Assembly: GCA_021835025.1 (NCBI GenBank) | Contig: JAKBQY010000028.1 | Span: 1 to 32,880 of the forward strand | Source of the DNA: Thermoplasmata archaeon | Lineage (GTDB): Archaea > Thermoplasmatota > Thermoplasmata > Thermoplasmatales > Thermoplasmataceae | Direction: 5' to 3' | Length of the DNA stretch: 32,880 nucleotides | Shown: piece by piece, positions 1,670 to 29,750 of the stretch | How the letters are laid out: each line of letters opens with the position of its first letter | Position numbering within the stretch: the stretch's first letter is position 1 | Notes under the pieces: generated by a model | Told to the model about the DNA's origin: nothing | What the model saw: only the letters and a program-made list of their open reading frames with translations | Database searches by the model: none | Program-made: the position numbers and the translations under genes

Positions 1670-2857
1670 TTGAAATTAAGTTATATGTTACGAGTTTTTT
1701 CAAGGCCCCAGATGAAAATAATTTCACTGGTTTCCACAACAATAGGATTGAGAACTTTGGGACTTTTCATGGTATTACCAGTTTTTTCATTATATGGCGA
1801 AAAATTTACAGGTTCATATTTATTAATTGGGCTTGCACTTGGTGCATATGGCATTACTATGGCTATTTTCCAGACACCTCTGGGAATATTGTCCGATAAG
1901 TATGGGAGAAAACTTATTATATCCCTGGGCATAATTACATTTACCATAGGAAATATAATATGTGCATTCCCGGTTAATATTACTGGCCTTATTATTGGAA
2001 GGCTCATGGAAGGCGCAGGAGCAGTGAGTTCAACTGGCATTGCCCTGGTACATGAAAATATTGAACCAACAAAGAGAAATATGGCCGATGCAATAATAGG
2101 GATATCAATAGGGTTATCATTCATGATTGGTGTTATAATAGGACCGTTATTGGCTGTATTTTTAAGCTATTCAGCGCTGTTTATAATTGCTTCATTGTTT
2201 GGAATTGTATCATTGGTCCCGGTATTTATGGTCAAGGAAAGAAAAAGAGAGCTTAATTTTGAAGCAAAATCAAGAATCGACATAAAAATTATCATGGTTT
2301 CAATAATAAGCTTTTTCATATATTTCTATATGATAGTTTTTTATTTCTATCTCCCTTTCTTCTCAATAAGATATGTCCCCGTTTCAGGATTTTATACATT
2401 TTTAATACCAGCAGTGATTATAGCAGGCGCTATAGGCATCGCAATTGCCAGGCCGGCCGACAAGAATAAAACTGTATTATTTTCCGTGATTTCATTGATA
2501 ATTCTTTTAATAAGCGTTCCAGTATATTTTTTAAATGTATATATCAAGGATGTTTATTTTTTCTATCTGGGTGTCGTTGTGTTTTATTCAGGCTACATAA
2601 TAAGCGAAACGGTATTTCCAACATTGATTACCAGAGTAGCTTCTGAAAATTCTTATGGTGGAAATCTTGGATTTTATACATCAATGCAACACGCAGGTGT
2701 ATTTGCGGGGGCAGTAGTTGCAGGCTTTCTTTTAATAAATATAAAGAATGATACGAATATACTTATTGTTATGGTTTCACTTTTCATAATTAGCATTATA
2801 ATACTATATATGGCCACAAAATTTAGGGAAATATATCTTAAAAAAAATCAAACTTAA
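1670..2857 (+). CDS. Major facilitator superfamily transporter
   Basis: A 395-residue integral membrane protein with about 12 hydrophobic segments in two halves. The loop after the second segment carries the MFS motif A (LSDKYGRKL, around residue 73-81). A proline/glycine-rich fourth to fifth segment resembles drug:proton antiporters (VGLIIGRLMEGAGA-like text). A charged loop at about residues 190-205 separates the halves. The TTG at 1670 is 25 nt after a TATA-like TTTTTATAC at 1641-1649, which suits a leaderless TTG start; ATG 1685 is the alternative. The gene runs into the tRNA-Leu promoter at its 3' end. Substrate cannot be read from sequence. A multidrug or sugar-acid exporter is plausible. 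Confidence 0.8.
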   Translation: MKLSYMLRVFSRPQMKIISLVSTTIGLRTLGLFMVLPVFSLYGEKFTGSYLLIGLALGAYGITMAIFQTPLGILSDKYGRKLIISLGIITFTIGNIICAFPVNITGLIIGRLMEGAGAVSSTGIALVHENIEPTKRNMADAIIGISIGLSFMIGVIIGPLLAVFLSYSALFIIASLFGIVSLVPVFMVKERKRELNFEAKSRIDIKIIMVSIISFFIYFYMIVFYFYLPFFSIRYVPVSGFYTFLIPAVIIAGAIGIAIARPADKNKTVLFSVISLIILLISVPVYFLNVYIKDVYFFYLGVVVFYSGYIISETVFPTLITRVASENSYGGNLGFYTSMQHAGVFAGAVVAGFLLINIKNDTNILIVMVSLFIISIIILYMATKFREIYLKKNQT

Positions 2858-2882
2858 TATATTTTGAAATAATAGGGGTGGT

Positions 2883-2967
2883 GCAGAGGTTACCGAGCTA
2901 GGACAAAGGCGCCAGATTAAGGGTCTGGTCTCGAAGGAGTTCGCGGGTTCAAATCCCGTCCTCTGCA
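2883..2967 (+). tRNA. tRNA-Leu, type II, anticodon reads AAG
   Basis: The cloverleaf is clear. The acceptor GCAGAGG (2883-2889) pairs with CCTCTGC (2960-2966), followed by discriminator A at 2967. The anticodon stem is CCAGA/TCTGG (2912-2916/2924-2928). There is a long variable arm at 2929-2942 (CTC GAAG GAG hairpin), and the T arm GCGGG-TTCAAAT-CCCGT is at 2943-2959. The 7-nt anticodon loop is TTAAGGG, so the anticodon at 2919-2921 is AAG (Leu, codon CUU). A34 is not expected in archaea, where GAG is used. Position 10 is A facing C25, also a mismatch. Both departures are single G-to-A changes from an ordinary tRNA-Leu(GAG). CCA is not encoded. A TATA-like TTAATATATTTT lies at about 2853-2865. 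Confidence 0.85.
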
Positions 2968-3256
2968 TGGCATTTTATTTTCATTTTTATTTTAGGTGAA
3001 CTACAGTAAACCTTGATTGCGTTTTTTATAAGGAATTGTTTAGCAACAAAAATTCGAAAAATAGTTAATCAAATATTTAGAGACTCAAAAGAGTATAGCA
3101 AAATGCCTGAAAAGATCTAGATTCTGTTGAAAATAATTATCTCATAAAAGGAGCAATAAATTGTGATTAAATTGAGTATTCGATGAGGAAGTTATAAAGT
3201 GGTGCAATCAAGAGGGGGCCATATATAAAAATAATATACAAAATTTAAAAAAATAT
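2968..3256. other. Intergenic stretch with no clear gene
   Basis: About 290 nt of AT-rich DNA between tRNA-Leu and the DsrE-like gene. A protein-like plus-strand reading (FDEEVIKWCNQEGAIYKNN) exists at about 3178-3240, but it has a stop just before it, has no start codon and runs into the antisense of the next gene. I see no RNA fold or promoter beyond AT-richness. Confidence 0.4.
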
Positions 3257-13081: not shown

Positions 13082-13431
13082 TTAAAACCGTAGGCTTCCT
13101 GCTTCTGCGACCAGAGTTGCCCTTGCGGGTAGTGCCCCAATCTCCACAGGCGTAACTTCGGGAATGGCCCTCCCTACTTTTTCCAGTTCCCTGTTATGGA
13201 TATTGATCGCTGCGTTGAGATCCCTATCGATCTTATATCCACAGTTGTTACATACAAAGATGCGTTGTGATAATTTCAGGTCATCCTTGATGTGTCCACA
13301 ACAGGAACATGTTTTGGATGTATTTCTTGGATCCAAGATCAAGTTATACAGTTCTCTACAGAGTTCTATCTGGTCGTTTAACATTCTTTCCTGCTCTGAA
13401 GATGGTACAGCTTGAACTTATATGCTTTCAT
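13082..13431 (-). pseudogene. tnpB: tnpB remnant (RNA-guided nuclease/OrfB family), internally deleted
   Basis: The N-terminus MKAYKFKLY starts at ATG 13431. A one-base loss after KLY throws the frame; restoring it gives PSSEQERMLNDQIELCRELYNLIL, the classic TnpB opening helix. This joins directly to DPRNTSKTCSCCG, skipping the WED and most of the RuvC region (about 250 residues). The C-terminal zinc ribbon (CSCCG...CNNCG) and the RuvC III segment DRDLNAAINIHN survive. It ends GSLRF just inside the right end. It is a decayed copy and cannot cleave. Homologues in IS605 use an omega RNA made from this same right end. Confidence 0.85.
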
Positions 13432-13677: not shown

Positions 13678-14829
13678 TTATGCGGAAATATATAACTTGG
13701 TTATTGCAAATTCATAATGCTTTAGAATTTCGTTTGCTGTAAGGGTTCCAGAGGCTGTTTTAAGCATGGTATTGTAAAGCCTGTTTCCTGCTTCCTTCAG
13801 GTCATATTCAAAGTTGAGTAACCCTGAAACGTCCAGATCAAAATGTTCCTTCATTGAATTATATGTCTTTGGATTTGCCGTAATTTTTATTACCGGTTCT
13901 ATGGGATTTCCAATTATATTACCCTGACCCGTTGTGAAAAGATGCACAACTGCACCAGCAGCAGAAAACAGGGTTACAGCCTCCGCCGCTGCCGAAGATG
14001 TATTCATGAAATTTAACCCCTTGGCCCTTGGTTCTTCAGCATAATCAAGCACTCCTCTTATTGGTCTTGTTCCCATTTTTTGTATATTACCAAACGCCTT
14101 TTCTTCTATAGTGGATAGGCCGCCTTTAATATTCCCCTTTGTTGGCTGTGAACCAAGAAGATCGGCTTTTTCCTTTATTATATCTGCCTGGTAGTCGTCA
14201 AATATTTTCTGGAATTTTGTTTTCAGTTCGGGAGTTGCACAATTCCTGGCCACATAATTTTCTGCACCTGTGAGTTCTGAAGTTTCACCGAATATTACCG
14301 TAGCACCTTCATCAACCAATCTATCAAAAACAACACCAACCGTTGGATTTGAAGCCAAACCAGAGGTTGTATCTGATTCTCCACATTTTGTGCTAACCAC
14401 AAGATTCGAAACATCAAACTCTTTCCTGGTTTTTCCACTTGCCTCCTTTACCATATCCCTTGCAACTCTTGATGCTTTTTCAATGGTCTTTATATCACCA
14501 CTGCCTTCTATACTTATAGCATCAACTCTTTTCCCGGTTTCAGCGATTTTGTCTGCTACTTCCTGTGTCCATTGATCTTCTATACCTACAACAACAGCAC
14601 TTGCTATATTTGGATTCTTGCCCATACCGGCCAGGGTCTTGAATGTTAAATCAAGATCCCTGCCAAATTGTAATCTCCCATATGGATGTGGTATGGCTCT
14701 AGTGCCATATATATTATTTTCCACTGCTTGTGTAACAGAATTGGAAAGATCATCCAATGGTATTATCAAAACGTGGTTTCTAGCGCCTATTCTTCCATTT
14801 TCCCTTTCATATCCCATAAACGTTGACAT
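13678..14829 (-). CDS. UxaA/altronate-dehydratase-type lyase, large (catalytic) subunit
   Basis: A 383-residue protein of the UxaA/GarD/SuyB family, which dehydrates sugar acids such as D-altronate or galactarate (or, in SuyAB, desulfonates sulfolactate) through an iron-dependent site. Recognisable blocks are GYERENGRIGARNHVLII near the start, the N-terminal-half STKCGESDTTSGLASNPTVG (about residues 163-182), FGETSELTGAE, and the late HLFTTGQGN plus PVIKITANPKT. The start ATG 14829 is chosen because AGGTGG sits 5 nt before it; GTG 14838 would overlap the upstream gene. The SAF subunit precedes it, so the two halves that are fused in bacterial UxaA are separate here. Family is firm. Altronate is the best guess given the neighbouring uronate genes. 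Confidence 0.8.
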   Translation of the reverse strand: MSTFMGYERENGRIGARNHVLIIPLDDLSNSVTQAVENNIYGTRAIPHPYGRLQFGRDLDLTFKTLAGMGKNPNIASAVVVGIEDQWTQEVADKIAETGKRVDAISIEGSGDIKTIEKASRVARDMVKEASGKTRKEFDVSNLVVSTKCGESDTTSGLASNPTVGVVFDRLVDEGATVIFGETSELTGAENYVARNCATPELKTKFQKIFDDYQADIIKEKADLLGSQPTKGNIKGGLSTIEEKAFGNIQKMGTRPIRGVLDYAEEPRAKGLNFMNTSSAAAEAVTLFSAAGAVVHLFTTGQGNIIGNPIEPVIKITANPKTYNSMKEHFDLDVSGLLNFEYDLKEAGNRLYNTMLKTASGTLTANEILKHYEFAITKLYISA

Positions 14830-14831
14830 TT

Positions 14832-15113
14832 TTACCACCTCATTGTCCTTATATTGTGAACGTGCACATGCTCACCTTTTTTTATATCCTGTGTGGCTTT
14901 GCCTACTGGCTCCCCATATTCCATAACCTTTTCATCCTTTTTAATATCTTTTAAAGCTATTTTATGCCCTAAAACAATATTATCAACTGCCTTAACATTG
15001 GTTCTTTGATTATTGTCCATATATACACCTTCTACTTCCTCATTTTTTGAGATGTCGTTGGTTGCCACACCAACAGAATCTCCATTTTTGTGTGCCAAAA
15101 ACTTTGTTGCCAT
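14832..15113 (-). CDS. UxaA-type SAF-domain small subunit
   Basis: A 93-residue SAF-domain protein, the N-terminal module of altronate/galactarate dehydratases and SuyA. It shows MATKFLAHKNGDSVGVATNDISKNEEVEG and then HKIALKDIKKDEKVMEYGEPVGKATQDIKKGEHVHVHNI, the signature (HK-x-A, I-K-G-x-x-V-x-x-Y-G-x-x-x-G-x-A, G-x-x-V-H-x-H-N) including the closing histidines. It ends 2 nt before the large-subunit ATG and carries that gene's ribosome site in its last codons. A TATA-like TTAAATAAA at about 15131-15142 lies 24 nt upstream of ATG 15113, so the operon mRNA is probably leaderless. The 517-nt region upstream separates it from the divergent regulator. Confidence 0.82.
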   Translation of the reverse strand: MATKFLAHKNGDSVGVATNDISKNEEVEGVYMDNNQRTNVKAVDNIVLGHKIALKDIKKDEKVMEYGEPVGKATQDIKKGEHVHVHNIRTMRW

Positions 15114-15630
15114 AATTATATATAATGTTAATTTATTTAAACTTTATTAATATGATATATTGTTTTAGATTTTTATTTAACAAAAATTGATAATAATATA
15201 ATATCTATTTAACACATTAAAATGAAAAAAATTTGGATATTGTTAAAAAAAATTACAGCAATTTCTGAATTATAACATAAAAGAATGGATAATATTTTTT
15301 AATCCCAATGTACCGTATAATATAATGTATTGACAAATTCTATATAGTTAAAAACATTTTATTTTTGTATATACAAAGCTGCTCAGGATACACATCATAA
15401 ATATTTCCAAAAATTCCTTTTTAAAAAATTTTAAATTTGCATATTTATAAAAATCTGTAAAAATTCGCTATTTTTAATGTGCATTATAGATATGCAAATG
15501 TCATTTTGTGTTATTATTAAAAATATTATTTAGGAATTTTATCAAGAAATTATATATTGTTTTATACTTTTGGACAAAATTGCATATTTTTATTTAAAAA
15601 AAATTATATATAAATAAAATATCTTCTATT
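15114..15630. promoter_or_regulatory. Divergent control region between uxaA-type operon and GntR gene
   Basis: 517 nt of very AT-rich DNA without genes. It holds the outward TATA boxes of both flanking genes (TTAAATAAA near 15137 and TATATATAAATA at 15605-15615). It also holds a recurring TTTGCATATTT-type motif at 15436-15446 and 15579-15590, with the reverse form ATATGCAAAT at 15490-15499, and a 14-bp palindrome described separately. Such repeats would suit regulator binding, but AT-richness makes chance copies possible. Confidence 0.45.
15364..15377. promoter_or_regulatory. Candidate GntR/FCD operator palindrome
   Basis: TTTGTATATACAAA is a perfect 14-bp palindrome. It has the TnGT...ACnA half-site arrangement typical of FadR-subfamily GntR regulators. 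It lies between the two divergent genes, one of which encodes exactly such a regulator. Confidence 0.4.
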
Positions 15631-16323
15631 ATGTACAATCCAAAAAATGTTAAAACATATAAAGATGAGAATGAAAATTTAGATCTTTCCGCAAGGGCAT
15701 ACGCCCAAATAATAGGTATGATTAGCTCAGGCTCTCTTAAAATGGGACAGATAATAACAGAGGATGCAATGAAAAACAGGCTTGGTATGAGTAAAACTCC
15801 CATAAGGGAAGCTTTTGCATCTTTGGAATTTGAAGGAATAATAAGTAAAAACGGAAGGTCATATTCTGTTATATATCCGGAAAGGGAAGAATTAAACGAA
15901 ATTTATGAGTTCAAGAGAGAGGTTGAGGGATTGGCCGCCTATTTTGCAACTTTAAGAATGACACCAGAAGATAAAAATGAATTAAAAAGAATAATTGATC
16001 TCATAGTAAAAGAGAATAAAGAGAGTGGAGACCCTGTTGTATTAGCCAATTTAAGTGGCGAATTGCATGAGGCAATAGCAAAGGGAAGCAAGAATAATCT
16101 TATTAGAAAAGATATTGAAAGCATGAGGTTAAAACTCAGAATTGTTAGAATTTCATTGTTTGCCAGCATGGAAAGAAAGCAGGAAGAGCTTGCAGAACAC
16201 CTGCTAATTACAAATGCAATACTGAATAACAATCCGGATGAGGCAAGGAAGGTCATGTATGACCATCAGACCGATGTGTGGAACTATGTTAAGGCAAAGG
16301 TTGTTCCAAGGTTGTATTATTAA
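15631..16323 (+). CDS. GntR-family transcriptional regulator (FCD/FadR subfamily)
   Basis: A 230-residue regulator. The N-terminal winged helix-turn-helix runs from about residue 17 to 82, with LKMGQIITEDAMKNRLGMSKTPIREAFASLEFEGII, where SKTPIREA is the GntR recognition helix. The C-terminal FCD effector domain shows its metal and ligand positions in LSGELHEAIAKGSKN (about 143-157), EHLLITNAI (about 190-198) and MYDHQTDVW. FCD members sense small carboxylates such as sugar acids. A TATA-like box ends about 16 nt before ATG 15631, so it is leaderless. Its stop overlaps the convergent uxuA stop by 4 nt. It probably controls the surrounding sugar-acid genes, in response to a pathway acid. Confidence 0.88.
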   Translation: MYNPKNVKTYKDENENLDLSARAYAQIIGMISSGSLKMGQIITEDAMKNRLGMSKTPIREAFASLEFEGIISKNGRSYSVIYPEREELNEIYEFKREVEGLAAYFATLRMTPEDKNELKRIIDLIVKENKESGDPVVLANLSGELHEAIAKGSKNNLIRKDIESMRLKLRIVRISLFASMERKQEELAEHLLITNAILNNNPDEARKVMYDHQTDVWNYVKAKVVPRLYY

Positions 16324-17309
16324 TGTATATTATTTTTATATGCTTCATATAACCCATTGATATAACCTATTGCATAAAGTCTGCCAAGATATGAATAACC
16401 TGGCACATCTGTATCATCACCACATAATGTCGGAACGTGGTCAACTCTCATTATGCCTGAGAAATTAATATCGTTATATGATCTAATGCAATCGGCTAAT
16501 GGGGTTTTACCTTTACCCAATGGTACTTCCATGAACTTTTCTCTATTACCAAGCACATCACGAAAATGAACGAATTTAATTCTATCCCCAAAATGTTTTA
16601 TTGCTGCTGGTAAATTATCAGTCATTAATGTAAAATTTCCCTGGCAAAATGTCATTCCATTATTTGGGCTTTTATTCAATTCGATCAATTTATCAAAGGA
16701 TTCAATTGAATTCATTATCCTTGGAATACCCATTAGAGAATTCAAAGGTGGATCGTCAGGGTGCATACATATTTGAATATCATTATTTTCAGCGATTGGA
16801 ATCACTTTGTCTAGAAAATATTTAAGGTTGTTCCATAGGTCTTCCTTTTTTATTTTATATTTATAATGAGATTTGACATCCCTAAGTTCCTGTAAGTCAA
16901 ATCCAGAGACTGTTCCATATTCACTCTTTATATGTGTTGATGTTCTTGTCCATCCCGTTATGGCATTCCAGCTATAACTCCATAGTTTTATTCCAAGCTT
17001 GCCAAAATTATCAAGCATTTTTGAAATATTTTCTATTTCATAATCTCTTTCATCCAACCCCAACCGAATCTTATCCATTGGTGGGTTGTCCTCTATTGCA
17101 ACCAATTTAAAACCATTTTCCTTTAACATGTTTTTATATTTTAAAAGTGGTAAGAAATCCCACGGTTCCTGGTTTTTTACCTTTCTCCAGTCATTAAATC
17201 CTCTTGGTAAAACACCTACTGTTTCGGACACCCCGATTTCCCTCAACATTTCCCAGTATTTATTTGGTTTTTCTTCGAGCAAAATTTCAGCAATTCTTAA
17301 TCCGGCCAT
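16320..17309 (-). CDS. uxuA: D-mannonate dehydratase
   Basis: A 329-residue TIM-barrel enzyme that converts D-mannonate to 2-keto-3-deoxygluconate (KDG). Family marks, in order, are YSWNAITGWTRT (about 112-123), QICMHPDDPP (His about 183), MTFCQGNFTLM (Cys about 222), GDRIKFVHFRDV (His about 248), then MRVDHVPTLCGD (Asp about 290, His 291) and PGYSYLGRLYAIGYINGL. These supply the Cys, two His and Asp of the divalent-metal site and the catalytic His/Asp of UxuA. Somewhat shorter than the bacterial enzyme (about 350-390). It lies 9 nt after the KDG aldolase gene; AGGTGATA, which contains that gene's stop codon, is its ribosome site. It is the last gene of the four-gene operon 20047 to 16320. 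Confidence 0.87.
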   Translation of the reverse strand: MAGLRIAEILLEEKPNKYWEMLREIGVSETVGVLPRGFNDWRKVKNQEPWDFLPLLKYKNMLKENGFKLVAIEDNPPMDKIRLGLDERDYEIENISKMLDNFGKLGIKLWSYSWNAITGWTRTSTHIKSEYGTVSGFDLQELRDVKSHYKYKIKKEDLWNNLKYFLDKVIPIAENNDIQICMHPDDPPLNSLMGIPRIMNSIESFDKLIELNKSPNNGMTFCQGNFTLMTDNLPAAIKHFGDRIKFVHFRDVLGNREKFMEVPLGKGKTPLADCIRSYNDINFSGIMRVDHVPTLCGDDTDVPGYSYLGRLYAIGYINGLYEAYKNNIH

Positions 17310-17318
17310 CTGTATTTA

Positions 17319-18182
17319 TCACCTTTTATATTCATTTATTAATATTTCCAATTCCCTACTTAGCAAGGAATTCTGGTCTTCAGAAAGAGGGTATATTGGC
17401 AATCTTGGTTTCCCTACGTCATATTTTAATAGATGTTTAACCATATTATAATTTGCTGACCACTGCCCATATTTTTGAGATAGGGCAGCTAGTTTGCCCA
17501 GAAATTTCTGGGATTGAAATGCCTGTTCAAAATCATCATTCATAATTGATGCAACCAACTCAGGGGCATAATTCCCAGTTCCTGCAACAGCTCCATCAAG
17601 TCCTGACCTGATAGCTGGTAAAATTAAGGTATCAGGGCCCGAATATACCCTAAACGATTTAGAAAATTCCCATTTAAAATTTAACATATGGTTTATATCT
17701 GGCAATGTTTCCTTGATTCCTATTATATTGCCTTTGCTTTTATTTACTGTTTTAATGATATTTGGTGAAATATTATAACCAGTTGTTAATGGGAAATTAT
17801 ATGCTATTGTTGGATAAATAGAAGAAATTTCAGTATAATATTTGGTATACCATTCATCGGGCATTCTTGGATAATAATATGGAGGAAGTGCTGCAATAGA
17901 CTTAATATTAAATTCCTTTGCTTTTTTGGCAAGCATTTTTGATTCTTCTAAATCAAGTGAGGTTACCTGAAGTATAACCTTTTCAGGGATGTCAGAAAAT
18001 TCCTTCATTATTTCCAGTTTTTCTTTAAATGATAATGATGGCCCAAGTCCCGTTGTACCCGCCAATAATAATGAATCAACACCGTTTGAAAGCAAAAAAT
18101 TGGCATGCCCCCTCAATTTTTTCAGATCAATGGAATTGTCATCCCTAAATGGAGTTATTATCGGAACTATAAACTCACTCAT
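17319..18182 (-). CDS. kdgA: 2-keto-3-deoxygluconate aldolase (DapA/KdgA family)
   Basis: A 287-residue DHDPS-fold class I aldolase cleaving KDG to pyruvate and D-glyceraldehyde. It follows the Sulfolobus KdgA closely: IVPIITPF at the start, LLLAGTTGLGPSLSFKEK (about 38-55), LPPYYYPRMPDEW (about 99-111), the catalytic Tyr in IAYNFPLTTG (Tyr about 128), the Schiff-base Lys in GIKET (Lys about 157) and YSGPDTLILPAIRSGLDGAVAGTGN. GTTGLGPSLS and YYYPRM are the text that separates KDG aldolases from dihydrodipicolinate synthases. It starts within the last codons of the hydrolase gene upstream (8-nt overlap, GGTGAT ribosome site). It is directly followed by uxuA, whose product it would consume. Confidence 0.88.
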   Translation of the reverse strand: MSEFIVPIITPFRDDNSIDLKKLRGHANFLLSNGVDSLLLAGTTGLGPSLSFKEKLEIMKEFSDIPEKVILQVTSLDLEESKMLAKKAKEFNIKSIAALPPYYYPRMPDEWYTKYYTEISSIYPTIAYNFPLTTGYNISPNIIKTVNKSKGNIIGIKETLPDINHMLNFKWEFSKSFRVYSGPDTLILPAIRSGLDGAVAGTGNYAPELVASIMNDDFEQAFQSQKFLGKLAALSQKYGQWSANYNMVKHLLKYDVGKPRLPIYPLSEDQNSLLSRELEILINEYKR

Positions 18183-18909
18183 TGTATATCACCGGTTGTG
18201 ATGCCTTATTCTTTCCAATACTTAACGAGAAATCAGTTTCGTCCTCATTTCTCATAAAAATATTTACTTGATCATTTTCAATATATCCATTTTCATTAAA
18301 CGGTGGGTCATGCCCAGGAAATATTATATCTGGATGGAGATTTTTTATTTTAATAATACTTTCCTTTGCTTTTTCCAAATTGTAAAATACAATATCAGGT
18401 ATTCCCCGAATGAATGCCCTCCTATTTGGAATGGCGTCTCCGGAAAATATTATTTTATTATTGCCATTCTCTAAAAGTAGGGAAATATGGCCAGGAGTGT
18501 GGCCTGGAGTATATATAACACTTGAATTGGGGGAAATATTTTCTCCTCCTTTAACAAGTTTCAGGTCTCTCTCCTTTAGGTATTCTATAAATTTTTTACT
18601 AATATTATCGTTTATTCCGGTTAATGTACCTAATTCGTATTCACTCTTTCCAATGATTACTTCAGCATTTTCGAAGATATCAAGGTTCAGGCAATGATCC
18701 CAGTTCATATGTGTTAAAAAAATTATATCTATATCCGATGGGGATATTTTATTTTCAACAAGGCGTTTTAAAAGCAAGTCCCTATTACCAAAATGTCCCG
18801 TATCCACAAGTATATTTTTATCACCCTGTATTAGAGTGACAGAAGCCGCACCCATTGTTCCATAATTTCCAAAGATGCCAGCACCCTTTAGAAGTCTAAT
18901 TAATTTCAT
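18175..18909 (-). CDS. Metallo-beta-lactamase-fold hydrolase (lactonase-like)
   Basis: A 244-residue metallohydrolase. The metal motif reads THMNWDHC (about residues 66-73), where the family consensus is HxHxDH, so the second His is Asn. The later ligands are present: TPGHTPGH (about 134-141), SGDA (Asp about 158) and PGHDPP (His near residue 201). The size and TPGHTPGHISLLLE resemble the quorum-quenching lactonase branch. In a sugar-acid operon the natural guess is hydrolysis of an aldonolactone or uronolactone formed by a sugar dehydrogenase. That is inference; MBL-fold sugar lactonases are less common than SMP-30 types. Overlaps both neighbours (14 nt upstream, 8 nt downstream), so translation is coupled. 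Confidence 0.75.
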   Translation of the reverse strand: MKLIRLLKGAGIFGNYGTMGAASVTLIQGDKNILVDTGHFGNRDLLLKRLVENKISPSDIDIIFLTHMNWDHCLNLDIFENAEVIIGKSEYELGTLTGINDNISKKFIEYLKERDLKLVKGGENISPNSSVIYTPGHTPGHISLLLENGNNKIIFSGDAIPNRRAFIRGIPDIVFYNLEKAKESIIKIKNLHPDIIFPGHDPPFNENGYIENDQVNIFMRNEDETDFSLSIGKNKASQPVIYNE

Positions 18910-20047
18910 TTATATCGCCGTGATATTTATATTCTGAGCTAAAATATTCAAGGTGCATTTTCTTATATGGATATTTTGTCAGTGCCTCTTCATTAATTTC
19001 TATTCCAAGTCCAGGTTTATTGCTTGGATATATATATCCATCCTTTAATCTAAAGTATTCATTTATAAGATCGTGCCTTACCGTTTCTGCATCAAGCCAG
19101 AATTCCAAAATAAGTGCATTTGGCATAGTTATGAGGGCATTCAGGGAAGCAGCAGTAGCAACAGGCCCATTGGGATTGTGTGGTGCCACTGTTATATAAT
19201 TTGTATTAGCCATTGCCCCAACCTGGGACAGTGCAAAAATACCACCCATGTGGCACACATCGGGCTGTATTATATCAGCACCCCTAGCAACCATTAATTC
19301 CCAGAATTTATTCTTTGACAATATTCTCTCTCCTGTAGCTATTGGTACCCTGGAGTTTCCTTTGACCTCTGCCATGGATAGAATATCTTCTTCAGGAACT
19401 GGTTCTTCGAACCAATATGGGTTATATTTTACAATTTCATTAGCTATCTTAATTGCCGTTCTAGTGTTAAATCTGCCATGTGCTTCTATCATAAGGTCAA
19501 TATCATCACCGACATTGTCCCTGATTGATTTGATTTTTTCTAAGGCAAGTTCCAACTCCCTATTGCTTATTGTTGGGCCGGATCCAGAAAATGGATCAAA
19601 TTTTAGTGCGTAGAAGCCTCTCTCAACGGTCTTAACTGCAGCTTTACCGAATTCCTCTGGTGATACATTTCCAGAGATAAATCCATTACCATAAACCTTC
19701 ACCTTATCTACAGCTTTGCCACCAATCATTTTATATACTGGCATGTTGAGAGTTTTTCCCATGAGATCCCAAAGTGCCTGTTCTATAGCACTTTCAGCAG
19801 TGGATAGCACGGGACCATTACGCCAGAAAAAATGCCTTACAAAAAAGTTTGTAATTTCATTGATTTCTATCTCACGGCCAATAAGAAATGGTTTTAAGTC
19901 GTTAATTGCCGCTTCTATACTTTTCTCAAAATCCCCAAGGGTGCCTTCACCATATCCCTTAAGCCCATTTTCTCCTTCTATTTCAACAATAACAAAATTT
20001 CTCCATACGGCTGCCGCAAAATATGTTTTAATGCCTTTTATTTTCAT
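18896..20047 (-). CDS. Enolase-superfamily sugar-acid dehydratase (galactonate/gluconate dehydratase-like)
   Basis: A 383-residue protein of the mandelate racemase/DgoD group, which removes water from an aldonate to give a 2-keto-3-deoxy acid. The N-terminal capping domain covers about residues 1-125. The barrel carries LKFDPF (Lys about 149), IEAHGRF (metal Glu about 188, His 190), WFEEPV (Glu about 214), ATGER (Glu about 240), QPDVCHMGG (Asp about 263) and APHNPNGPVATAAS (catalytic His about 290). His190 plus His290 is the pattern of galactonate and gluconate dehydratases rather than of mandelate racemase. The first metal ligand is Glu instead of the common Asp. First gene of the operon ending at 16320 and divergent from the aldehyde dehydrogenase gene. 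Substrate cannot be fixed. Confidence 0.83.
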   Translation of the reverse strand: MKIKGIKTYFAAAVWRNFVIVEIEGENGLKGYGEGTLGDFEKSIEAAINDLKPFLIGREIEINEITNFFVRHFFWRNGPVLSTAESAIEQALWDLMGKTLNMPVYKMIGGKAVDKVKVYGNGFISGNVSPEEFGKAAVKTVERGFYALKFDPFSGSGPTISNRELELALEKIKSIRDNVGDDIDLMIEAHGRFNTRTAIKIANEIVKYNPYWFEEPVPEEDILSMAEVKGNSRVPIATGERILSKNKFWELMVARGADIIQPDVCHMGGIFALSQVGAMANTNYITVAPHNPNGPVATAASLNALITMPNALILEFWLDAETVRHDLINEYFRLKDGYIYPSNKPGLGIEINEEALTKYPYKKMHLEYFSSEYKYHGDINEIN

Positions 20048-22759: not shown

Positions 22760-22967
22760 TATAAATGAAAATACATTTCAGTACTGATATTAAGATTAGT
22801 TATGGACTATTAATTATCAGAATCCCTATACAATGATAAGATGATTGGTTCAGCATATTCACAAAGAAGAAAGCAGATAGACCATTCAATTTGATGTATA
22901 ATCAATTCATATAGCGACGAATATTTCCATAATTAATCCTCAATGTCTCTCATTGAAATGTGACAAA

Positions 22968-22980
22968 TTTTTATATATAC
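22968..22980 (+). promoter_or_regulatory. TATA box of the hsd operon
   Basis: TTTTTATATATAC is centred about 25 nt before GTG 22999, which decides that start over the in-frame GTG at 22960 that would lie upstream of the transcript. Confidence 0.6.
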
Positions 22981-22998
22981 GAAACTCATATTATTTAT

Positions 22999-24549
22999 GT
23001 GAGTGAGACTAATAGCAACGAGCGTGGAATTGAAAAGGAATTGTGGAAAGCCGCTGACAAATTAAGAAGCAGCATGGATGCTGCGGAATACAAGCATGTA
23101 GTTCTTGGGCTCATTTTCTTGAAATACATATCGGATACATTCAATGAAACTTATGAGAAAATTAAGAACGATCCAGAAATGTTGTCAGATCCAGAAGACA
23201 GGGACGAGTACATTGCTAGGAATGTCTTCTGGGTTGTACCTGAGGTGCGATGGCCATACCTCAAAAGTAACGCTAAACAACCAAACATTGGCATTCTTGT
23301 GGATCAGGCTATGGATGCAATTGAGAGAGACAACAATGTCTTGAAAAGTGTACTGCCTCATGATTACGGAAGACCAGCACTCGATAAGCAGAAACTCGGG
23401 GAACTCATTGATCTGATAAGCAACATTGGATTCAGCCAGTTGGATGGAAAGAGCAAGGATCTTCTCGGAAGTGTGTACGAATACTTTCTTGGCCAGTTCG
23501 CAGATGCAGAGGGGAAGAAAGGAGGACAGTTCTACACACCCAGAAGCATCGTTCAGTTGCTTGTTGCAATGCTTGAACCTTTCAAAGGCAGGGTTTTTGA
23601 TCCGTGTTGCGGGTCAGGAGGAATGTTTGTTCAAAGTGAGAAATTTATCGAAGCACATCAGGGGAGGAAAGATGATATTCACGTTTTCGGACAGGAATCA
23701 AACCAGACTACATGGAAACTGTGCAAGATGAATCTTGCGATCAGGGGTATCGATTCTGATTACGTCAGATGGAACAGTGAAGGAAGTTTCCTGAACGATC
23801 TGCACAGGGATCTAAAGGCAGATTTCATCCTTGCCAACCCACCCTTCAATGATTCTGACTGGAGTGGAGAATCTCTCAGGAGTGATATCAGATGGAAATA
23901 CGGTGTACCACCTGCGGGAAACGCCAACTTCGCGTGGATACAGCACTTCATCAGTCATTTGTCACCAACGGGAATCGCAGGTTTTCTTCTCGCAAACGGT
24001 TCGATGAGTTCCAATACTTCAAATGAGGGAGATATCAGGAAAAATATCATTGAAGCTGATTTGATTGATTGCATGGTTGCTCTTCCTGATAAGCTATTCT
24101 ATAATACAGGGATTCCTGCTTGTCTTTGGTTCATTTCGCGGGATAAGCACAACAATAAGTTTAGAGATAGAAAAGGACAGATTCTTTTCATAGACGCAAG
24201 AAAGCTTGGAAATATGATCGACAGGAGACACAGGGAACTTACTGATACTGATATAAAGAAAATCTCAGACACTTATCACCTATGGAGAGGAGAACAATTA
24301 GAGAACGTTGAAGGTGGATACAAAAATATTCCTGGTTTTTGCAAATCTGTGAACTTGGAGGAAGTAAGGAAAAATAACTGGATTCTTACGCCTGGCAGAT
24401 ATGTTGGTAGTGAGGAAGTAGATGATGATGAAGATTTTGAAGAAAAGATGGAGAATCTAACTCGTGAACTTGCAAGACTGATGGATGAAGGCCAGAAGCT
24501 TGACGATGAGATAAAGAAAAATTTGGAGGTGATAGGATGGCGGATTTAG
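22999..24549 (+). CDS. hsdM: Type I restriction-modification methyltransferase subunit
   Basis: An N6-adenine DNA methyltransferase subunit of 516 residues from GTG 22999 ([20 protein letters not shown]). The N-terminal HsdM helical domain runs [33 protein letters not shown] (about 15-47), the standard opening. The methyltransferase core has [15 protein letters not shown] (about 175-189), the SAM loop [10 protein letters not shown] (about 201-210) and the catalytic NPPF in [13 protein letters not shown] (about 276-288). The C-terminus is a charged helix. Four genes follow in tight overlap. The segment is visibly richer in G and C than the flanks. It protects the host target site in complex with HsdS. 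Confidence 0.93.
24524..24531 (+). promoter_or_regulatory. Strong Shine-Dalgarno site for the gene inside the hsd operon
   Basis: GGAGGTGA ends 5 nt before ATG 24537 and lies within the last codons of hsdM. It is complementary to the archaeal 16S 3' end and fixes the start of the unknown gene, arguing that the gene is genuinely translated. Confidence 0.65.
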
Positions 24550-25352
24550 GTTTACCTGGGTTTACATTCGGCTTCTCTTTTATCTATGAACAGACACGGA
24601 GACATTGGGGAGAACTATGTGGTGTGCCTCTTCTCCCAAGCCTACAAGATGAAAATAGAGTGGGTTGGGATGCAATTTTACCGACTGTTGGTACTAATTA
24701 TTACTATCAATTCAAACGAAGCGAACTTCTTCAAAGAAGTAATGCTAAGCACATATCAGAGGGACCTTACTTAGATCCATATTTCAGGTTTTACTTGCAC
24801 AAATCCAACTACGACCGACAACGTCGATTTCTATGGGAGCATGCTCAGAAGTTAGGTAATCATAATATATACTACGTAACTCCGGAAACGGTGTCCCGAT
24901 CGAAATTTAGAGCAGCCTTCATGAATAACACAATTCATGAACATTCAAAATTGATCCCATTACGTGGATGTCACAATTACCCTTTTGATAATGGTAAGCT
25001 ACTTTACATAACATATGAATACAATGTCAAAGGTTTCCACCAATATTCTGATTCTTACAAGGGTGATGGCGATATATTTAGAAAGAATATTGAAAGTTTA
25101 TTTGAAAAGAGCGAAAAAGATTTAGTTCCTATTGATGAAAATTATTCAGATAATTTTTTAAAGAACACAATAAATTCTATCGAAGATCTGGTTAAAGATT
25201 GTTATCTCTCTGGGGTTCAGAAATTACTCGACGTTCGATTTCCGGAGACTAAGATCGAAAAAATTTTATTTTCTGCAAAAATATTATCCGCAGCATTCGG
25301 TATTTCAGCGGAATTAGTTGGAAAAAAGGGCGAGAACAGTGGTGTCAAATGA
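24537..25352 (+). CDS. Unknown protein with PD-(D/E)XK-like core, inserted between hsdM and hsdS
   Basis: A 271-residue soluble protein that belongs to no standard type I subunit. Near the N-terminus it reads [20 protein letters not shown] (about 31-50) and then YYYQFKRSE (about 55-63). The order Glu39, Asp45 on a strand after GW, then Gln58-x-Lys60 on the next strand is what a PD-(D/E)XK nuclease core of the D...QxK type looks like. It continues with [25 protein letters not shown] and [15 protein letters not shown], which fit an alternating strand/helix fold, and ends in a charged helical part (about 185-271). The start overlaps hsdM by 13 nt and the stop overlaps a possible hsdS start by 4 nt, so it is made with the complex. 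A nuclease, anti-restriction or specificity-modifying role is possible. Function unknown. Confidence 0.7.
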
Positions 25353-25420
25353 TTCCACGGGGACACAGAAAAAATAAAATACAAATAAGGCGGTTTGTTA
25401 AAAAAAATGGAAGGTATCTA

Positions 25421-26629
25421 ATGGTTTATACTACTTTCAACTTGGAAGAATTGGTGTCAATTTCTACAGGTAAGATCAATTCAAATGAATCCAATGTAAA
25501 TGGTATTTACCCTTTTTTTACCTGTGCACCAGAACCATTGAGAATTAACTGGTACTCTTTTGAAGCGGATGCAATTCTCTTAGCTGGAAATAACGCAAAT
25601 GGAATTTACCATATACAAAGGTATAATGGTAAGTTTAATGCATACCAGAGAACTTACATTATAACAACAACCAGAACAGATGTTTCACTTGATTACCTAT
25701 ATTACTTATTGAAACTGAGATTGAATTATCTTCACGATGTTTCGCAGGGAACTGCAACAAAATTCTTGACAAAAAATATATTAAATAAAATTTCTATAAA
25801 TCTGCCCTCAATAGAAGTGCAGGATAATGTGGCTCATATTTTGACCACATTGGAAAATAAGGTCAAGGTGAATAAACAATTGAACAAGACCCTCGAATCC
25901 ATTGCCCAAACCCTCTTCAAGCATTGGTTCATAGATTTTGAATTCCCTGACGAAAATGGTCAACCTTACAAGTCAAGTGGGGGGGAGATGGTTGAATCTG
26001 AATTCGGGGAGATACCTAAAAATTGGGAAATAAAAAAGTTAAACCAAATCGTAGACCTGAAAATTGGAAGAACGCCCCCCACATCCCAAAAAGAGTGGTT
26101 CAGTACTAATGAGAGGGATATACCATGGATTTCTATCAAGGATCTTGGAAATGCTCAAACTTTTGTGACAGAAACAGCGAGATTTTTGACTGAAGAGTCG
26201 GTAGATAAATTCAAAATTCCGTTGATTAAATCCGGAACCGTTATGCTCAGTTTCAAACTTACTGTTGGAAGAGTTGCCATTACTGCTATGAATTGTATAT
26301 CGAACGAGGCAATTGCCCAGTTCAAGATTCAAGACCAAAAAATGTCCACGTCGTATTTATATCTTTATCTAAAGAGTTATGACTTCAACAAGGTGGGAAG
26401 CACATCTTCTATTGCTAACGCAACGAACAGTAAAGAAATTGGCAAGATCCCCATAATAGTTCCTTCAAAGGAGGTGTTCACTCCTGAAACGATTTCATTT
26501 GAAACAATATTGGAAAAAATTAGAATAAATACTTTGGAAAATAGAAATCTGAGTAAGATTAGAGATTTACTGCTTCCTAAATTAATGTCTGGCAAAATCA
26601 GAGTTCCAGTGAGGGATACCAATGACTGA
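25421..26629 (+). CDS. hsdS: Type I restriction-modification specificity subunit
   Basis: The DNA-recognition subunit, 402 residues from ATG 25421. That start has GGAAGG about 6 nt upstream and gives the usual short lead-in ([17 protein letters not shown]). ATG 25349, overlapping the preceding stop, would add a lysine/arginine-rich 24-residue leader and is the alternative. Two target-recognition domains are separated by the central helix ([35 protein letters not shown], about 144-178), and a second helix, [27 protein letters not shown], closes the protein. The second domain begins with [23 protein letters not shown]. The two domains differ strongly, so the target is probably bipartite and asymmetric. 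Overlaps hsdR by 8 nt. Confidence 0.92.
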
Positions 26630-29600
26630 CCGATTTTATGAATCTGACCTTGAGGAAACTTTCATGGAGATGCTGGCTGATCTTGGCTACAGGACGGAAT
26701 ACGCTCCAAACATCTCAGAAGGGAGCCTCTATCAGGAGAGGACCAACGATGAGGTTGTCTTTGTGGAGAGGATTAGGCAGAGGCTTATATCCATCAACCC
26801 GGGAGTTCCGAGAGATGTCATAGAAGATGCAATCAGAAAGATAACAAGAACTGACTCACAGGATCAGGTGGTAAACAACAGAAGTTTCCACAGAATTCTC
26901 TTCAATGGGTTGGATGTAGAATTCAAAGACAAAGATGGTCGGATAAAGGGAGAGAAAGTATGGTTAATAGACTTCGAGAACCCCGAAAACAATGAATTCT
27001 TCGCCCTGAACCAGTTCACCGTAAGAAAGGAAAAGAGGAATAATCTGCCAGACAGAAGACCAGATATTGTCATCTTTGTGAATGGCTTACCCTTAGTTGT
27101 AGTTGAGCTAAAGAACCCTACAGATGAAAAGGCAACAATTCTTTCCGCGTACAGGCAAATACAGACCTACAAGAATGAAATACCTTCACTATTCAGATTC
27201 AATGAAATAATCATTATCAGCGACGGTATACAGGCAAAAGCAGGAACAGTTTCTTCTCAATACGAGAGATTCATGCCTTGGAAGACTGTCTATTTCAATC
27301 CTCCGGAGAAAAATATACCCCAATATGAAACTCTCATTCAGGGCATGTTAAATAAAAGAACATTCCTGGATCTTATCAGGCATTACATTGTCTATGAAGA
27401 GGAGAGAGACACGGTCAACAACATAACACGGACGGTAAAGAAATTAGCCGCCTACCACCAGTACAACGCTGTAGAAAAGGCAATAAAAACCACTGTGTCA
27501 GCAAAAGGTGGTAGCAAGAAGGCAGGTGTCGTTTGGCATACTCAAGGATCAGGAAAGAGTCTCACAATGGTTTTCTATGCTGCAATGCTTGCAATTAGAA
27601 AGGAACTTAAAAATCCCACCATTGTAGTCCTCACTGACAGAAATGATCTTGACGGACAACTATTCGCTACTTTTACAAGATGCCAGGAATTGCTGCGACA
27701 GGAACCAAAACAGGCAGATTCCAGAAAAGATTTGCAGTCGCTCCTGAAGGTTGCATCTGGAGGTATCGTTTTCACAACAATCCAGAAGTTTCTCCCTGAA
27801 GAAAAGGGGCATGAATTTCCATTGCTGTCAGAAAGAGATAATATCATTGTAATTTCAGATGAAGCGCACAGAACTCAGTATGGATTCGGTCTGAAAGTAC
27901 CGAAAAGTGATGATGAGGCATTACTGAAATATGGATATGCCAAGTACATCAGGGATGCCTTACCAAATGCATCTTTTATTGGTTTTACAGGAACACCCAT
28001 AGAAAACGCAGATCGCAGTACCTCTGCTGTTTTTGGTGAATACGTGGATGTTTACGACATTCAGCAATCTGTGGTGGATGAAAACACAGTAAAAATTTAC
28101 TATGAAAATCGTTTGGTTGAGATTCATCTTAATTCAGAGAAGGTTCCAAAAATAGACAGCGAGTTTGATGCTGCAACCGAGGGTGAAGAAATAGAGGGAA
28201 AGGAAAAGCAAAAGACCAAGTGGAGTGCCCTTGAAAAGGTAGTGGGAACTGAAGAAAGGATAAAAAAGATCGCCGAAGATTTCGTGAAACACTGGGAAAA
28301 CCGCTTGAGCATCTTGGATGGCAAAGCCATGATCGTAACCATGAGCAGGAGAATCGCCATTGAACTTCACTATGAGATCATTAAACTGAGACCATCGTGG
28401 TATAATAGGGACGATACAAAGGGAACAATCAAGGTTGTTATGACTGGTTCAGCGTCAGATGGACCTGAATGGCAGGAACACATCAGAAATAAGGAGGGGA
28501 GAGATCGAATAGGAGACAGGTTCAAGGACCCGGATGACTCACTGAAGATTGTAATCGTAAGGGATATGTGGCTCACCGGCTTCGATGTTCCCAGCTTGCA
28601 TACCATGTACGTCGACAAACCGATGCAGGGACATACTCTAATGCAGGCAATTGCAAGGGTGAACAGGGTATTCAGGGATAAACCTGGTGGTCTTGTCGTT
28701 GATTACATCGGTATTGGTTCGGACCTGAAAAAGGCTCTTAGCATATACACTGAGGGAGATAAAAAAGACACTGGCATACCAATGGATCAGGCCATTGCAG
28801 TCATGCTGGAAAAATATGAAGTCGTTTCTGCACTGTTTCATGGATATGAATACAAGAAGTTCTTCACAGCAGAACCAAAGGATAAACTGAGAATAATTCT
28901 TGAAGCTTCAGATTTTATCCTGTCTGTAGATAGAGGAAAGGGAAGATTTCTGGAAAATGTACTCTCACTTTCAAGGGCTTATGCTTTATGCGTACCGAGC
29001 CAGGAATCCATTCACCTCAGGGACGAGATTGGTTTTTTCCAAGCAGTCAGAGCATCCATATTGAAAAACAGCGAAGATTCCAAAAGAGATTACAAAAATA
29101 CCGATTCTGCTATAAAACAGATCCTATCCAAAGCCATTGTATCAGATAGGGTAATAGACCTGTTTGAGGCTGTAGGTATCGAAAAACCAGACATTTCAAT
29201 CCTGTCAGATCAGTTCCTTTCTGAAGTGAAGGGGATCCAACAGAAGAATCTGGCATTTGAGGCCTTGAAGAAATTGTTAACAGATCAAATAAAGTTAAGG
29301 CTGAAAAAGAGTGTGGTACAGGGCAGGTCCTTTGCAGAACTGTTGGATAAGACGGTCAAGCGCTATATCGATAGGAGCATAGAGGCTGCTCAGGCATTGG
29401 AAGAATTGATCGAACTCGCCAAGAAGATCAGGGAGGATCAGAAAAGGGGAGCGAGGCTAAACCTGAATGAATATGAAGTTGCTTTTTACGATGCTTTAGC
29501 AGATCATAAGACCGCGAATGATGTACTTGGAGATGATACTCTAAAGGATATAGCAAGGGAACTTGTGAAGGCATTGAAAAAGAACGTCAAGATCGATTGG

Positions 29601-29750
29601 ACCATAAGGGAGAGCGTTCAGGCACAGATGAGGATCATGGTGAAGAGGATTCTCAAGAAATATCACTATCCACCGGATGGGCAACAGAGGGCCATCGATA
29701 CTGTTCTTGTCCAGGCAAAACTGTTTGTTCAGGAATGGGTTGTCTCCTAA
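26622..29750 (+). CDS. hsdR: Type I restriction enzyme, nuclease/translocase subunit
   Basis: The 1042-residue motor and nuclease. The N-terminal PD-(D/E)XK domain shows [22 protein letters not shown] (Asp148, Glu162-x-Lys164), followed by the QxxxY-like RQIQTYK (about 178-184) of HsdR nucleases. The SF2 translocase has Walker A HTQGSGKS (306-313), DEAH (413-416) and FTGTP (455-459). In the second RecA domain are [23 protein letters not shown] and [12 protein letters not shown] (motifs V and VI). The C-terminal helical region contacts the methylase. All active residues appear intact, and no frameshift is seen. GAGGGAT 4 nt before ATG 26622 is the ribosome site. It cuts DNA at a distance when the HsdS target is unmethylated. 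Confidence 0.95.

Follow-up and report, generated by a model that had tools for sequence, protein, structure and literature searches.

Archaea are usually described as lacking tRNAs with adenosine at the first anticodon position (e.g. PMC11066159). The window, a 32,880-nucleotide stretch of an Acidiplasma genome, holds a tRNA-Leu gene whose anticodon reads AAG. The questions raised by this locus are whether the gene works and how the codons CUU and CUC are read with its product.

Identification of tRNA-Leu(AAG)

An earlier inspection of the DNA letters (the sequence-only reading) had described a tRNA-Leu with an AAG anticodon and an A10-C25 mismatch in an otherwise intact fold. ARAGORN, Rfam model RF00005, and direct reading of the bases all confirm this description. 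ARAGORN reads the gene as Leu-AAG, and RF00005 matches positions 2883-2967 on the plus strand with 38.1 bits against a gathering score of 29. The anticodon loop (2917-2923) is TTAAGGG, which places AAG at tRNA positions 34-36 as had been stated, with G37 at 2922. Twenty pairs were checked across the acceptor, D (10-12/23-25), anticodon, and T stems, and all but A10-C25 are standard. The cloverleaf, long variable arm, covariance-model match, and leucine anticodon identify a type II tRNA-Leu. The locus has these features:

2883..2967, plus strand: tRNA-Leu gene, anticodon AAG, tRNA positions 1-73 (ARAGORN, Rfam RF00005)
2919..2921, plus strand: anticodon, A34 = 2919, A35 = 2920, G36 = 2921 (direct reading, ARAGORN)
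2892, plus strand: A10, 5' side of the A10-C25 mismatch (direct reading)
2910, plus strand: C25, 3' side of the A10-C25 mismatch (direct reading); U25 in G001 (A. aeolicum)
2853..2865, plus strand: TATA-like motif CTTAATATATTTT, a putative promoter 18-30 bases upstream of the tRNA
2973..2993, plus strand: T-rich stretch 3' of the gene, possibly a terminator; not conserved even in G002

The motif TTAATATAT starts 28-29 bases upstream of the tRNA in 8 of the 10 genomes examined that carry the A34 gene, the match being inexact in G026 and G028. Among relatives with G34 in the corresponding gene, it lies 30 bases upstream in G054 and G055 and 33-34 bases upstream in G045 and G046, and it is missing upstream of the tRNA in G007 and G029.

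The tRNA set and the absence of GAG

The source assembly is 1.68 Mb in 65 contigs and 96.2% complete. An Rfam search found 44 tRNAs, and their anticodons were assigned by ARAGORN. The leucine anticodons are TAA, CAA, TAG, CAG, and AAG. Neither a GAG tRNA-Leu nor a second A34 anticodon occurs among the 44, and each of the other four-codon boxes (Val, Ala, Pro, Thr, Ser, Gly, and Arg) has a G34 tRNA and no A34 tRNA. The list for F. acidarmanus (G019) also has 44 tRNAs, with Leu-AAG, without Leu-GAG, and without another A34 tRNA, and the list for G057, which we take to be Thermoplasma acidophilum, contains Leu-GAG. These lists are not quite complete: tRNA-Trp is unnamed in all three, including among the 44 of this genome, and ARAGORN left one tRNA each unread in G019 and G057. 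Pro-GGG, present in this genome and in G057, was not recognized in the G019 list (Pro-UGG and Pro-CGG only) and was perhaps missed by Rfam. Two genes of this genome, a GUA-type Tyr tRNA and a CAU tRNA (L023 1501-1596 and L024 1501-1590), have enlarged anticodon regions that are probably introns.

The absence of GAG from this 96%-complete genome alone is not absolute; GAG is also absent from F. acidarmanus, which is assembled as a single contig. A GAG anticodon-arm pattern was found in 0 of 13 Acidiplasma and Ferroplasma genomes and in 7 of 7 G34 genomes of the family by the same search. The tRNA census that the sequence-only reading had proposed as a check thus finds no GAG tRNA-Leu, either among the 44 tRNAs of this genome or, by pattern, in 12 relatives. 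A34 sits in the orthologue of tRNA-Leu(GAG) with no GAG gene remaining, and no tRNA dedicated to CUU and CUC other than the AAG one was found in this organism.

Distribution and origin of A34

The family was searched with this tRNA. Seventy-two of 77 genomes matched and five did not, and the best match was read in 69, the weaker matches of G049, G053, and G067 being left out. AAG was found in 3 of 3 Acidiplasma genomes (this one and A. aeolicum, G001, included) and in 10 of 10 Ferroplasma genomes (F. acidarmanus included). In the rest of the family the best match was GAG in 55 of 56 genomes, the remaining one being a CAA tRNA from the incomplete genome G076, and GAG was seen in all 17 other genera. 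The sequence-only reading had regarded a close relative with G34 as evidence against an A34 tRNA; such relatives exist outside the Acidiplasma/Ferroplasma group, and none was found among the 13 genomes within it. A34 is accompanied by A10 in 13 of 13 cases, as A10-C25 in 12 and as A10-U25 in G001. All 55 GAG tRNAs of the family have G34 together with G10-C25, in agreement with the earlier proposal that both oddities are G-to-A changes relative to tRNA-Leu(GAG).

A tree built from 11 proteins encoded in the ribosomal-protein region (1,853 columns; 13 genomes) places the seven A34 genomes sampled in one group, split from the six G34 genomes with a support of 1.0. The sequence comparisons suggest that a single G34-to-A34 change, with G10 to A, most likely occurred in the common ancestor of Acidiplasma and Ferroplasma and became fixed there. 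An origin of A10-C25 from A10-U25 by a U-to-C change was also considered, on the basis that G001 has A10-U25 and that U25 faces A10 or G10 in this genome's other Leu tRNAs. It is disfavored by A10-C25 in 12 of 13 A34 tRNAs and G10-C25 in 55 of 55 GAG tRNAs. This distribution favors a path from G10-C25 to A10-C25, which would have been followed by C25-to-U in G001. G001 is the first branch among the A34 genomes with a support of 0.84, and this position leaves some room for the reverse order, with A10-U25 first.

Part of this picture is already published. A 2018 survey of 167 genomes (PMC6000648) reports tRNA-Leu-AAG in F. acidarmanus fer1, its derivation from GAG by a G-to-A change, and the absence of GAG. 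That gene belongs to the same family, and the gene in the window is its Acidiplasma orthologue. The survey terms the F. acidarmanus gene a species-specific gain, whereas here all 13 genomes of two genera have it. Beyond the family, a class-wide sample gave matches to GGYGNNNGAYTRAGGNTC in 131 of 400 genomes, the 269 unmatched genomes being uninformative. Matches of the A34 type came from the 12 A34-group genomes in the sample (G024 was not sampled) and from G283 and G325. The last two were rejected as carriers of an A34 tRNA, as ARAGORN finds no tRNA in 218 bases around the match. A collection scan returned 18 stretches; 10 are tRNA-Leu(AAG), all from Thermoplasmata, Ferroplasmaceae, Ferroplasma or Acidiplasma records, and eight are not.

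Conservation of the A34 tRNA

The tRNA alignment comprised 11 of the 69 sequences, seven of them distinct (three A34 and four G34). Over the seven distinct sequences, 98.8% of cells are paired, compared with 35-52% in slid controls. Seven pairs changed on both sides versus 3.2 in shuffles, and only 1 of 500 shuffles reaches seven. Alignment columns 31-45, a pair of the anticodon stem, hold C-G in Acidiplasma and U-A in Ferroplasma; in the variable arm, columns 49-56 pair as U-A or C-G within the A34 group. Position 34 is the sole difference from the aligned G34 relatives in the anticodon loop. The conserved pairing and the upstream TTAATATAT are not expected of a decaying gene. All three window genes adjoining the tRNA also adjoin it in G002, and two of the three do so in G001; the same three genes were not found within about 1.5 kb of the tRNA at four Ferroplasma and three G34 loci.

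The sequence-only reading had offered decay or sequence error as explanations. Two departures from tRNA-Leu(GAG) in one gene could point that way, and the gene has the lowest Rfam score (38.1 bits) among the 44 tRNAs of the genome. The idea of a decaying gene, or of sequencing or assembly errors at A34 and A10, fails against the identical A34 and A10 shared by all 13 genomes of the two genera, the lack of a second CUU/CUC reader in the tRNA list and by the GAG pattern, the compensatory changes on both sides of stems within the A34 group, and the F. acidarmanus gene already reported in PMC6000648. We regard it as exceedingly improbable. Judged by its sequence and conservation, 2883-2967 is apparently a functional, working tRNA-Leu.

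Search for an A34 deaminase

In bacteria and eukaryotes an encoded A34 in a four-codon box is converted to inosine by TadA or ADAT2/3. The tRNA studied here is likewise an encoded A34 in a four-codon box and, if deaminated, would decode alike. Of 21 genomes searched with PF14437, 20, including this one, have a single matching protein. PF00383 matched in 18 of 18 genomes, with a second strong match in G027 and a weaker second match in the G34 genome G033. Nineteen of the 20 PF00383 proteins were extracted, the weaker G033 match being left out, and all 19 carry one dCMP-deaminase-like motif set, whether they come from A34 or from G34 genomes. Three of them were scanned against NCBIfam and scored 117-119 bits with ComEB (cut-off 219), 98-109 bits with the anti-phage dCTP deaminase model (cut-off 400), and 40-44 bits with TadA (cut-off 150); the name dCMP-deaminase-like is thus given by similarity, the best model, ComEB, being below its curated cut-off. 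Compared with solved structures, the protein of this genome is closest to dCMP deaminases (4e-26), the best TadA match being 3.5e-6. The ADAR-type family PF02137 was found in 0 of 9 genomes; the control for this search matched in only 1 of 14 genomes, below the cut-off. The PF14437 and PF00383 hits were rejected as a TadA-like A34 deaminase because they are dCMP-deaminase-like and common to G34 genomes. The second G027 (Ferroplasma) protein is encoded by a different dCMP-deaminase-like gene (C104 and C68; L164 and L179); by eye it is nearer to those of other genera, and it may reflect contamination (4% reported) or transfer.

The deaminase check suggested by the sequence-only reading therefore recognized no TadA- or ADAR-type enzyme with PF14437, PF00383, or PF02137, which gave only dCMP-deaminase-like proteins where examined. 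Its statement that A34 is unexpected in archaea, which lack the A34-to-inosine system, stands: A34 is exceptional, and a recognizable deaminase was not found. Its suggestion of editing is not borne out, A34 being encoded in 13 of 13 genomes; inosine formed at position 34 of the mature tRNA stays a rival. An enzyme missed by sequence searches would make inosine, and CUU, CUC, and CUA would then be read as in bacteria and eukaryotes. Archaea form m1I57 from adenosine, which counts in its favor, as does the presence of a protein with the CDA deaminase fold in these genomes. Nearly all A34 tRNAs elsewhere become I34, according to PMC11066159 and PMC3711424. Set against these points are the dCMP-deaminase-like motifs of 19 of the 20 PF00383 matches, the TadA scores far below the cut-off in three of three proteins scanned, the dCMP deaminases as best solved relatives of the one protein searched, the same protein in G34 genomes, and the empty PF02137 search with its weak control. 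These data make inosine at position 34 unlikely, though still worth serious consideration.

Codon usage of CUC

Codons were counted in ORFs of at least 150 amino acids in sampled stretches of nine A34 and 10 G34 genomes. CUC/(CUC+CUU) amounts to 0.18 here and 0.24 in F. acidarmanus, near the respective values of 0.17 and 0.22 for GUC/(GUC+GUU). The Leu-Val contrast does not differ between A34 and G34 genomes (p = 0.44), and when six other four-codon boxes are averaged as the reference, the CUC share is lower in A34 than in G34 genomes (p = 0.008); both tests treat related genomes as independent, and three A34 samples have fewer than 200 CUY codons. The Leu/six-box ratio is 0.20-0.61 in eight of the nine A34 genomes and 0.80 in the ninth, which has only 75 codons. 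Base composition was rejected as the whole cause, as G34 genomes of similar GC3 are not low (G007, 0.69; G029, 0.68; G061, 1.01). G054, which of the G34 genomes lies closest to the A34 group on the tree, also has a low ratio (0.32); CUC may thus have become rare before A34 arose. The six-box contrast goes against easy reading of CUC. In four A34 genomes, CUC codons align with Leu of G34 relatives in 62, 64, 81, and 68% of cases and CUU codons in 68, 68, 63, and 59%. CUC aligns with Leu about as CUU does, which indicates that CUC is a working leucine codon.

These results bear on a second rival, in which A34 reads only or mainly CUU, and tRNA-Leu(UAG) reads CUC by superwobble of a U34 that is unmodified or carries a suitable modification, making the loss of G34 tolerable. 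The tRNA-Leu(UAG) is present in this genome, CUC makes up only 6-8% of Leu codons here and in F. acidarmanus, and its rarity against the six boxes relative to G34 genomes fits this scheme. The lack of depletion relative to GUC speaks against it, and the same lack of avoidance favors inosine. The ribosomal protein L2 region is also divided. The CUC fraction there is 0.17 versus 0.27 elsewhere in F. acidarmanus, as the scheme would have it, but it is not lower in this genome (0.19 versus 0.18), and the values are 0.27 versus 0.21 in G028 and 0.16 versus 0.18 in G002. Archaeal U34 is normally modified in a way that restricts wobble, which also counts against reading by UAG. An M. jannaschii tRNA with AAG and G37, expressed in E. 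coli with no inosine detected, read CUU and CUC at 87:13 (PMC11066159). This preference for CUU favors reading of CUC by UAG, and it also indicates that A-C wobble works in E. coli, if weakly. We judge the transfer of CUC to tRNA-Leu(UAG) unlikely too. Reading of CUC through unmodified A34 opposite C3 is about evenly balanced against its alternatives.

A-C stem pairs and the acid cytoplasm

A-C mismatches were counted over the 20 stem pairs defined in PMC3372908, using the tRNA lists of three genomes. This genome has eight A-C stem pairs, F. acidarmanus has 10, and G057 has three, so that among the three genomes compared they are commoner in the two A34 genomes than in the relative with the less acid cytoplasm. 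PMC3372908 lists 10 A-C pairs for F. acidarmanus, five for Picrophilus torridus, and two for T. acidophilum and ties them to internal pH; our F. acidarmanus count agrees, and the G057 count is three against the two listed for T. acidophilum. For seven of the eight A-C pairs of this genome, F. acidarmanus has an A-C pair at the matching site of the corresponding tRNA:

Asn 5-68
Gln-UUG 27-43
Ser-CGA 11-24
Glu-UUC 27-43
Glu-CUC 27-43, A-C in G057 too
Leu-CAA 50-64
Leu-AAG 10-25

Apart from L023 and L024, the tRNAs of this genome have three mismatches other than A-C. The non-A-C mismatches at L023 and L024 and at L291 of G057 are taken as artefacts of introns in the anticodon loop. A-C mismatches are also one-step intermediates of ordinary stem evolution. 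A10-C25 is one case of a stable A-C pattern in Acidiplasma and Ferroplasma, and it fits the C-A "mismatches" of acidophile tRNAs described by Bernhardt and Tate (2012, PMC3372908). Section 16 of that paper concerns stem pairs only, and its main text does not use the word "wobble"; the step to A34 opposite C3 is our own.

The internal pH is given as 4.9 +/- 0.5 for F. acidarmanus (PMC3372908) and 5.6 for F. acidiphilum (PMC3787623), values that favor A+.C pairs. P. torridus retains GAG, according to PMC6000648, and an internal pH of 4.6 is listed for its sister species in PMC3372908. Acidity would therefore permit A34, not require it.

Other features of the window

Three further regions were noted by eye. 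Positions 22960-29750 resemble a type I restriction-modification operon, with methylase (22960-24549), specificity (25349-26629), and restriction (26622-29750) genes and an extra 271-amino acid ORF (24537-25352) between the methylase and specificity genes. A 100-amino acid ORF on the minus strand (13082-13384) looks like the zinc-ribbon C terminus of a transposase of the IS605 type and is probably a remnant. Positions 13678-20047 hold a cluster that looks like sugar-acid catabolism, with altronate/mannonate dehydratase-like, dihydrodipicolinate synthase-like, and mandelate racemase-like genes and a GntR-type regulator.

Discussion

We propose that A34 would stay unmodified in the mature tRNA, that CUU would be read by Watson-Crick pairing of A34 with U3, and that CUC would be read by A-C wobble of the unmodified A34. 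The acid cytoplasm, reported at about pH 5-5.6 in Ferroplasma, may protonate adenine, so that an A+.C pair with the shape of G.U forms, and the same pairing would also rescue A10-C25 together with the remaining A-C stem pairs. Cytoplasmic acidity would then take over the role of inosine, A34 being protonated on the ribosome and CUC being read by A+.C wobble. This last step is tentative and, on balance, doubtful. The whole explanation, a functional sole reader of CUU and CUC with one origin, an unmodified A34, and CUC reading by A-C wobble that is probably aided by acid, comes close to an even call without quite reaching it.

A close parallel is found in Mollicutes that lack TadA, which likewise have an unmodified A34 in a four-codon box and no deaminase gene, as described in PMC3711424. 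One group of them reads the entire box with a lone A34 tRNA-Arg, whereas here U34 and C34 Leu tRNAs serve CUA and CUG. The bacterial and eukaryotic I34 systems differ in having TadA or ADAT2/3, no TadA- or ADAR-type enzyme being recognized here. The F. acidarmanus gene, its GAG origin, and the loss of GAG are already known from PMC6000648, and the A-C stem pairs from PMC3372908. PMC6000648 surveyed 29 anticodon-modifying enzymes, listed in a supplementary table; its main text does not contain "TadA", "deaminase", or "Acidiplasma", and no mention of A10 or of CUC reading was found there. Searches of the open-access literature yielded neither an account of CUC reading in these archaea nor a link between the A34 tRNA-Leu and the A-C stem pairs. 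New here are the occurrence of the A34 tRNA throughout two genera, the change at position 10, the negative outcome of the deaminase searches, the mixed codon evidence, and the link between two published observations.

Deaminase-free A34 tRNAs are very rare, and here A34 has replaced G34 in a whole group that includes cultured members. These organisms offer a natural test of unmodified A34 on C-ending codons and of an acid cytoplasm against the base-pairing rules of translation. If the proposal is true, wobble on these ribosomes would depend on pH, and the same chemistry would have left a second trace in the A-C stem pairs.
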